Position numbers and translations under genes: made by a program
Assembly: GCF_000183745.1 (NCBI RefSeq)
Contig: NC_014761.1
Span: forward strand, 682,001-746,000
Source: Oceanithermus profundus DSM 14977
Lineage (GTDB): Bacteria > Deinococcota > Deinococci > Deinococcales > Marinithermaceae
Direction: 5' to 3'
DNA length: 64,000 bases
In this document: positions 18,784-21,174 of the stretch, one piece after another
How positions within the stretch are numbered: position 1 is the first letter of the stretch
How the letters are laid out: the number at the start of each line of letters is the position of its first letter
The notes under the pieces: model-generated
Told to the model about the DNA's origin: nothing
The model's database searches: none
Seen by the model: only the letters and a program-made list of their open reading frames with translations

Positions 18784-21174
18784 ATGCCGAAAGTCAAGGT
18801 CAACGACCGCACCGTCGAGGTCCCCCCCGGCACCTCGGCGATGGACGCGATCTTCCACGCCGGCTACGACGTGCCCCTCTTCTGCGCCGAACGCCACCTG
18901 AGCCCCACCGGCTCCTGCCGGATGTGCTTGGTGCGTGCGGGCGCGCCGCGCAAGGGGCCGGACGGCGAGTGGATCACCGACGAGTCGGGGGAGGTCAAGA
19001 TCTTCTGGTTCCCCAAACTGATGGCGAGCTGCACGCTGGCCGTCAGCGAGGGCATGGTGATCGACACCCTGTCGGACGAGGTGCGGCACGCCCAGTCGGG
19101 GATGGTGGAGCTGACGCTCGCCAACCACCCGCTCGACTGCCCCACCTGCGACAAGGGCGGGGCCTGCGACCTGCAGGACCGCGCCTACGAGTACGGGCTC
19201 GACGAGAAGTTCTACACCGGGCCCGAGGGTGAGCCGGTCTACACCCGCTACGCCTTCACCAAGCGCCACGTCGACAAGCACCACCCGCTCAGCGAGTTCA
19301 TCATCCTCGACCGTGAGCGCTGCATCCACTGCAAGCGCTGCGTGCGCTACTTCGAGGAGATCCCCGGCGACCAGGTGCTCGACTTCATCGAGCGCGCGGT
19401 GCACACCTTCATCGGCACCGCCGACGAGGGGCTGCCCTCCAACTTCAGCGGCAACATCACCGACATCTGCCCGGTGGGGGCGCTGCTCGACCGGGTGGCG
19501 CGCTTCCGCGGCCGCAACTGGGAGTTCGAGCAGACCCCCAGCGTGAGCACCGACGACGCCTCGGGCCAGTTCATCTGGATCGACGCCCGCAGCGGCCGCA
19601 TCGAGCGCATCCGCGCCCGTGAGAACCCTGAGCTGAACGACATCTGGATCTCCGACGCGGCGCGCTTCGGCCACGAGTGGGCCGATACCGACCGCATCAC
19701 CCGGCCCATGGTGCGCAAAGGCGGCTCGCTCGAGCCCGCGACCTGGGAGGAGGCGCTCGCCGCCATGCGCCAGGGACTCGAGGGCGTCGACAGGAAACGC
19801 GTGGGCGTCGTGCTTCCCGGCGACGCCACCCTGGAGGAGGGGCTGGCCGCGGCCGAGCTCGCGAAGCAGCTGGAGAGCGGCTTCCTCGACTTCGAGGGAC
19901 GCACCGCGGTGCCGGCTTCGAACTTCCCGGCGGCCTCCTTCGCGAGCGTGCTCGAGGCCGACTACCTGCTCGTGGTGGGCGACCCCACCGAGGAGCTGCC
20001 CATCGCGCACGTCTGGATCCACAAGCGCCTGCGCGGGGTGCCGATGCCGCCGCGTTTCAACCACGGCACCCCGATCGCCGACCTCGCCATCCGCGAGCAC
20101 ACCCCGCCCGACCCCCGGCTCCTGGGCGCCTTCGCGCCGCACCCCACGCGGGTCATGGAGTGGGCCGAGGCCAAGGGCGTCTTCGAACCCGGCCACGCCG
20201 TCGCCCTCCTCGCCGCCTTCGAGGCGGCGCTGGCGGGCCGCGAGCCCACCGAGGTGCCGGGCGTGGACCCGGCGGCGGTGGGGCGCGCTGCGGAGCGCTG
20301 GCTGGCCGCCGAAAAGCGGGTCCTCTTCCTGGGCGCCGAGGTGCTGATGGACCCCGAGGCCGCGAAGCTGGCCGAGAAGATCGCCAAGTCGCAGGGCGCC
20401 GGCGTCTTCGCCATGACCCCGGCGGCCAACGCCCGCGGGCTCGAGGCCATGGGCGTCTGGCCTACGGGAGGCCACGAGGGGCCGCGCGCGGCCTTCATCG
20501 CCGCCGAGGCGCCCCCGCAGAAGCTGCTCGAGATGACCGAGTTCCGCGTCTTCCACGCCGCGCGCATGAGCGACGTGCTGCGGCGCTACGCCGACGTGGT
20601 GCTGCCGGCCAAGACGCCTTACGAGAAGCGCGGCACCCTGCTCAACGTCGAGAGCCGGCTCGTGGGGCTCGAACCCGCCCACGTCGACGCCGGCGAGGCC
20701 GAGGGCCTGACGCAGGCGCTGGGCCTCTTCGCGGACGCCCTGGGGGTGCAGGCGCCGGTGCGCTTCGTGCACCAGGCGCGCAGGCGCTTCCAGGAGCGCT
20801 ACCGGATCGACCTGGACAAGCTCGAGCCCTACGGGACCCTCTGGCGTCCGCGCGTCAGCCTGGCCCCGCGCCCGGCGCCGATGGAGGGCAACCTCTACCT
20901 GCGGCCGAGCATGTGGAAGGCGCGCCACCGCCTGGGTGCCGTGGTCCAGCGGGCGCTGGGCGCGCTCGAGCTGGCCGCGCACCCCGAAACCGCCCTGGCC
21001 GAAGGGCTCGACGAGGGCGCGACGCTCGAGGTGGAGACCCCCCAGGGGGCCCTCAGGGCGCGCCTCGTCTTCGACCCCGAACTGCCCAAGGGCTGGTTCT
21101 TCCTGCCGGCGGGAACGCCGGCGGCCCGGCTTCCCTTCCGGGCCCTGGTGCCCCAGGGAGGTGAAACCTCATGA
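18784..21174 (+). CDS. nuoG: NADH-quinone oxidoreductase subunit G (Nqo3) lacking N7 ligands
   Basis: 796 aa. All ligands of N1b (Cys34, 45, 48, 83), N5 (His115, Cys119, 122, 128) and N4 (Cys180, 183, 186, 229) are present. The four Cys that bind cluster N7 in Thermus Nqo3 align with Ser255, Asp258, Gln262 and Ser290 ([12 protein letters not shown] and WISDAARF), so N7 cannot form in the usual way. The flanking sequence [10 protein letters not shown] and [11 protein letters not shown] remains alignable and the frame is unbroken. N7 is off the electron path, so activity need not be lost. The C-terminal half is a molybdopterin-oxidoreductase-like domain. The reading continues upstream without a stop, but ATG 18784 gives the normal start. 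Confidence 0.95.

Follow-up and report, generated by a model that had tools for sequence, protein, structure and literature searches.

The analysed window is a stretch of 64,000 nucleotides from Oceanithermus profundus. The genome totals 2,439,291 bases, of which 2,303,940 belong to the larger of its two contigs. It carries a set of nuo genes around nuoG, the gene of the homologue of Thermus Nqo3. nuoG lies on the plus strand at 18784-21174 and encodes 796 residues; the sequence-only reading of this DNA was right to call its frame open. nuoB (14476-15036), nuoE (16893-17465) and nuoF (17462-18781) are located 5' of nuoG and nuoI (22160-22690) is located 3', all on the plus strand. The four encoded proteins align with the corresponding E. 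coli subunits.

Cluster ligands of O. profundus NuoG

Thermus Nqo3 (2fug_3) matches NuoG over its full length, with a score of 908 bits (NuoG residues 1-794 against 1-782). Profile searches find PF13510, PF10588, PF22117 and PF00384 above their cut-offs, in the order of complex I NuoG/Nqo3: Fer2, NADH-G 4Fe-4S, Nqo3 ferredoxin-like and then molybdopterin-oxidoreductase-like. The predicted NuoG model has a mean pLDDT of 75.4, with values below 50 at residues 281-296 and 109-249, among others. A fold search with this model returned Thermus Nqo3 (4hea_3) as the nearest structure, with a TM-score of 0.78 by query.

The ligands of N1b (C34, C45, C48 and C83; 18883-19032), N5 (H115, C119, C122 and C128; 19126-19167) and N4 (C180, C183, C186 and C229; 19321-19470) are intact in the alignment and are common to O. 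profundus NuoG and T. thermophilus Nqo3 (2fug_3, 4hea_3), the product of the same gene. In the other subunits, the cysteines of N1a (NuoE 83, 88, 124 and 128), N3 (NuoF 353, 356, 359 and 400) and N6a/N6b (NuoI 53, 56, 59, 63, 98, 101, 104 and 108) match cysteines of both T. brockianus and E. coli, and those of N2 (NuoB 52, 53, 118 and 147) match the E. coli NuoB cysteines. The assignment of individual cysteines to N1a, N1b, N2, N3, N4, N5, N6a and N6b is one that we assume. With the cluster names taken in this way, the alignments agree with the earlier statement that all these ligands are preserved.

The former N7 site covers residues 250-293 (19531-19662, plus strand), with a loop at 255-262 and facing residues at 290-293. 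Alignments with 2fug_3, E. coli NuoG and, as a second Thermus reference, the named T. brockianus NuoG (L047) place Ser255 (AGC, 19546-19548), Asp258 (GAC, 19555-19557), Gln262 (CAG, 19567-19569) and Ser290 (TCC, 19651-19653) at the positions of the four N7 cysteines of Nqo3. These are exactly the residues that the sequence-only reading had named. Thermus Nqo3 also has a glycine three residues past the fourth ligand; O. profundus NuoG has Ala293 there (19660-19662).

That reading had also considered that other cysteines nearby might take over. None does. NuoG contains 11 cysteines (34, 45, 48, 83, 119, 122, 128, 180, 183, 186 and 229) and all of them are at N1b, N5 (with His115) or N4 ligand places, so that none is free to replace the N7 ligands. 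A sequencing or frame error can be ruled out, as the NuoG proteins of five other genomes of the genus, 79-96% identical, show the same four residues. From the residues present, we infer that O. profundus NuoG binds no cluster at this site.

The domain profiles follow the same division. PF04879 (Molybdop_Fe4S4), whose segment carries the CxxCxxxC...C motif, matches T. brockianus NuoG (39.8 bits) and a four-cysteine NuoG from family f5, defined below (33.4 bits). The profile search found no PF04879 match in O. profundus NuoG (E up to 1), which has 0/4 of the motif cysteines, or in one N7-less f5 protein. PF22151 (Fer4_NDSU1), named after NDSU1/NuoG-like proteins, matches O. profundus NuoG (29.9 bits) and the N7-less f5 protein (35.8 bits), as well as T. 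brockianus NuoG and the four-cysteine f5 protein. With its N7 ligands missing, a PF22151 match and all other ligands intact, the O. profundus protein belongs to the N7-less type of NuoG.

Distribution of N7 ligands in the order

The sampled phylum comprises 111 genomes, all from one order and distributed over five family codes (f1-f5). f1 is the family of O. profundus and f4 that of Thermus, with genera g10-g14. Matches to named Thermus records identify g13 as Thermus; we take g10-g12 to be Meiothermus-like and f5 to be Truepera-like. A scan of named genomes returned 13 loci. NuoG was matched in 108 of the 111 genomes. Before counting, L124-L127 (paralogs or a fragment) and a duplicate of the window protein were removed. 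Outside the counted set are also two genomes with fragments that miss the site by coordinates (G002, G086) and three with no NuoG match (G008, G078, G100).

The N7 site could be read in 104 NuoG sequences. Four cysteines are present in 31 and none in 73; no sequence has one to three. The ligands are found in 0/14 NuoG of f1, 3/3 of f2, 0/3 of f3 and 1/35 of f5 (G099, genus g26, locus L082). Within f4, they are present in 26/26 Thermus sequences and in the single member of the sister genus g14, and in 0/22 from g10-g12. Two further pieces stand outside the 104: a broken nuoG of the Thermus genome G064 with four cysteines in the piece, and a NuoG fragment of G095 (f5), from a record with 9% contamination, in which the fourth cysteine and Gly293 are present.

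Thermus and one sister genus are thus the exception within their own family, and the N7-less state is the commoner one in the sampled order. This changes the scope of the earlier claim of a clean and complete loss. The ligands are indeed wholly missing, but this is nothing special to the organism, as it holds for 14/14 of its family and 73/104 sequences across the order. The related lineage that was said to have N7 does have it in Thermus, but not in g10-g12, and an N7-bearing ancestor follows only if loss is preferred over gain. Mapping the four cysteines on a tree, as had been proposed, bears out complete presence or absence, but with several changes and with most of the order N7-less.

Several observations were made along with these counts. 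L125 (G025), L126 (G024) and L127 (G073) are NuoG-like paralogs with 28-29% identity, in which the positions aligned with the N7 ligands hold four cysteines; as a guess, they are perhaps formate dehydrogenase subunits. The nuoG matches at G062:C4:700538-702879, G060:C1:1702161-1704507, G064:C1:21415-23760 (Thermus) and G088:C6:3828-6229 (f5) come in overlapping or adjacent pieces, which points to frameshifts or assembly errors in nuoG of a few genomes. The accessory subunit Nqo15 was considered as compensation for N7. Its profile PF11497 is matched in 97/111 genomes, with and without N7 ligands alike, and a general link is absent. G008 and G100 have Nqo15 and no NuoG match, reflecting either an assembly gap or a loss of complex I. 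G099, which has the N7 ligands, shows no PF11497 match; the same is seen in only 3/85 genomes with a completeness of 90% or more and a contamination of 5% or less, and this is a single case. In O. profundus, the Nqo15 homologue is located at G000:C2:764058-764414, outside the window and about 60 kb from nuoG.

Inheritance of nuoG and direction of the changes

A tree of RpoB+RpoC (61 taxa, 60 of them ingroup; 2597 columns; E. coli as a long outgroup) joins f1 with f4 and places f5 together with f2+f3; these nodes have ultrafast bootstrap values of at least 98 and SH-aLRT values of at least 94.5. A tree of 59 ingroup NuoG sequences, built after removal of the N7 columns, recovers the same families. 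The exception is f1, which is split in two (96/86) in the NuoG tree and undivided in the RpoB+RpoC tree; the tree program flagged long outgroup branches for NuoG. f1 adjoins f4 with full support in the trees. Beyond its own genus, O. profundus NuoG shares 55-66% identity with its relatives in f1 and f4. An f5 tree of 31 rows and a tree of the NuoG C-terminal part with 44 rows were made later.

On the NuoG tree, the N7 label is forced to change three times, versus 12.8 in shuffles. Forcing all four-cysteine NuoG sequences into one clade lowers the log-likelihood by 638 (p-AU 0.0011), so that a single transfer does not explain the pattern. Judging from these sequences, NuoG descent seems vertical, with an N7 state that changed repeatedly. 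The N7-less proteins of g10-g12, f5 and f3 have zero of four cysteines, a similar refill and tree positions like those of their RpoB+RpoC; they probably represent separate losses. In the O. profundus line, the exchange is probably older than the whole family f1.

The direction of change can be read in two ways. With losses only, the RpoB+RpoC tree requires five independent events, a number that rises if f1 is truly split. Alternatively, the N7-less state could be ancestral, with the four-cysteine site regained in place by Thermus and its sister genus, by f2 and by one or two f5 genera. At equal cost the latter is shorter, with three changes, all gains, from an N7-less root, or four changes when the partial G095 row is included. 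The RpoB+RpoC tree places G095 next to G108 and G109 (89/91), and its NuoG fragment is closest to that of G099, at 60%. Two-state likelihood models also lean slightly to an N7-less root, the matched fits differing by 0.8 to 3.1 log units; with free rates, the log-likelihoods for the N7-less and the N7-bearing root are -11.38 and -13.13 without G095, and -13.65 and -14.43 with it. Moreover, the N7-less lineages have similar replacement residues, which is what descent from a common ancestor would produce.

We nevertheless consider it likely that the changes in the order were losses rather than regains. Four ligands and a glycine would have to arise jointly three or four times, which is harder than losing them. 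The losses-only history becomes the cheaper one as soon as one gain costs 2 losses, or 1.5 counting G095. Four cysteines are present in E. coli NuoG and in a rhizobial NuoG-like protein (L191, unannotated), and the matching cluster is present in the formate dehydrogenase FdhF (PMC9474812), so that the N7-bearing state looks older overall. Finally, the sequence of G099 around the ligands is that of f5: outside five key columns, its identity reaches 89% with f5 rows and is at most 58% with f2 and 53% with Thermus and g14. This disfavours an imported N7 segment and removes it as an explanation for a regained site. An ancestral N7-less state is therefore unlikely. A still more doubtful variant is that the site behaves as a two-state module, in which a [4Fe-4S] cluster and a cluster-free polar plug were switched at least three times (four with G095), without intermediates among the rows, and in which Thermus, f2 and f5 genera possibly rebuilt the four cysteines from a cluster-less ancestor.

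Probable refilling of the emptied site and proposed role of N7

When the NuoG columns of the 104 rows were compared, only 255, 258, 262, 290 and 293 separated the two states without overlap; column 260 nearly does so. Residue 293 is Gly in 31/31 rows with N7 ligands and in 0/73 rows without. This glycine is a correlate found in the present comparison and not a published criterion for N7. In the N7-less rows, position 255 is Ser or Asp in 67/73, position 258 is Asp in 70/73 and Asn in 3/73, and position 290 is Ser or Asp in 71/73. Position 262 is more variable (Ala in 37, Ser in 28, Gln in 6 and Thr in 2 of 73) and 293 is mostly Ala or Thr. Asn258 occurs in f3 and Asp290 in f5. Gln262 is limited to the O. 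profundus genus and distinguishes it from g10-g12, f5 and f3, which have Ala or Ser. Among the N7-less rows, Asp258 equals or exceeds about 79% of NuoG columns in conservation, indicating that at least part of the emptied site is still constrained. The other four columns are middling, with conservation rank fractions of 0.42 (255), 0.54 (262), 0.45 (290) and 0.68 (293).

Two residues outside the site are retained as a candidate salt bridge, Arg304 (19693-19695) and Glu614 (20623-20625). Arg304, which we selected as the invariant Arg 14 residues past the fourth ligand, is found in 104/104 rows, and Glu614 in 97 of the 99 rows that have a residue in that column. The E. coli counterpart of Glu614 in the alignment is Glu615; PMC5123574 gives both Glu615 and E617A. 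According to the same paper, changing the salt-bridge Glu yields an active but unstable E. coli complex, which its authors attribute to the loss of N7; N7 is called essential for complex I stability in E. coli and not strictly conserved across species (PMC5123574). Two reviews place N7 outside the electron path, confine it to some bacteria and regard it as probably a vestige (PMC10212512, PMC7613608).

These data make it probable that an off-path cluster was swapped for a cluster-free plug several times, independently, and in an all-or-none manner across the order. N7 would then be a structural plug that carries no electrons and only holds the molybdopterin-like C-terminal domain together where it begins, and it would be dispensable once the site is repacked. 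In such a swap, the loop 255-262 and the facing residue 290 would turn to small or acidic polar residues, mostly Ser/Asp255, Asp258, Ala/Ser/Gln262 and Ser/Asp290, and Gly293 to a larger residue, mostly Ala or Thr. Together, these residues may span and occupy the space left by the cluster, with the conserved Arg304 and Glu614 still closing the domain. The packing of the emptied site, with its contacts, is proposed here from the aligned residues. Several points weigh against this explanation. Equal-cost parsimony and the two-state models lean to an N7-less root, as given above. The same replacement residues in separate losses, among them Asp for Cys, which takes two base changes, represent more convergence than plain decay predicts. 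Columns 255, 262, 290 and 293 are of middling conservation, and the low pLDDT at 281-296 leaves the predicted model uninformative on what occupies the site.

In some Fe-S proteins, an individual Cys ligand can be replaced by Asp or Ser, and all four replacement residues of O. profundus NuoG are polar, as would be expected if a cluster were still bound via oxygen ligands (Ser, Asp). Against this, position 262 is Ala in about half of the N7-less rows and Gln in the O. profundus genus, position 258 can be Asn, Gly293 is missing in all 73 rows, and we know of no [4Fe-4S] cluster without any Cys. We therefore regard an oxygen-liganded cluster as very improbable.

Related sites are known outside the order. 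L190, an unannotated alphaproteobacterial protein identified as NuoG by similarity (37% identity over the aligned part), lacks the N7 cysteines. At the four ligand positions it carries D, D, S and S, with Thr at 293, a similar refill in which Ser262 stands instead of the Gln of the O. profundus genus. Mitochondrial NDUFS1 is of the N7-less kind, mitochondrial sequences having been compared in alignments alone. The homologous domain (PF04879) and cluster position are also found in E. coli NuoG and in molybdenum formate dehydrogenases, which, unlike O. profundus NuoG, keep the ligands (PMC9474812, PMC5123574). Gain of an N7-less NuoG by horizontal transfer from another group would account for the resemblance to the alphaproteobacterial site and for the split of f1, but the O. 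profundus sequence groups with the Thermus order, and the close agreement of the NuoG and RpoB+RpoC trees elsewhere, the position of f1 next to f4 and the one-clade test leave this explanation hardly credible.

NuoG without N7 is a known kind. Its repeated all-or-none occurrence beside Thermus appears to be undescribed in the literature covered by a narrow search. Among the papers listed in this search, none combined complex I, cluster N7 and Meiothermus and, judged by titles and the beginnings of abstracts, none of those on Oceanithermus and complex I dealt with this subject.

N7 has been reviewed as a vestige, yet its loss is reported to destabilise E. coli complex I. In the Thermus order, which includes the standard structural model, one scaffold is shared by related complexes that have the N7 ligands and others that lack them. 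The view of the sequence-only reading that this case bears on a purely structural role of N7 is upheld. The five columns that track the state name the swap to be tested, namely the four ligands and residue 293. Because only these five NuoG columns track it perfectly, both the role of N7 and its replacement should be testable by a small exchange in Thermus.
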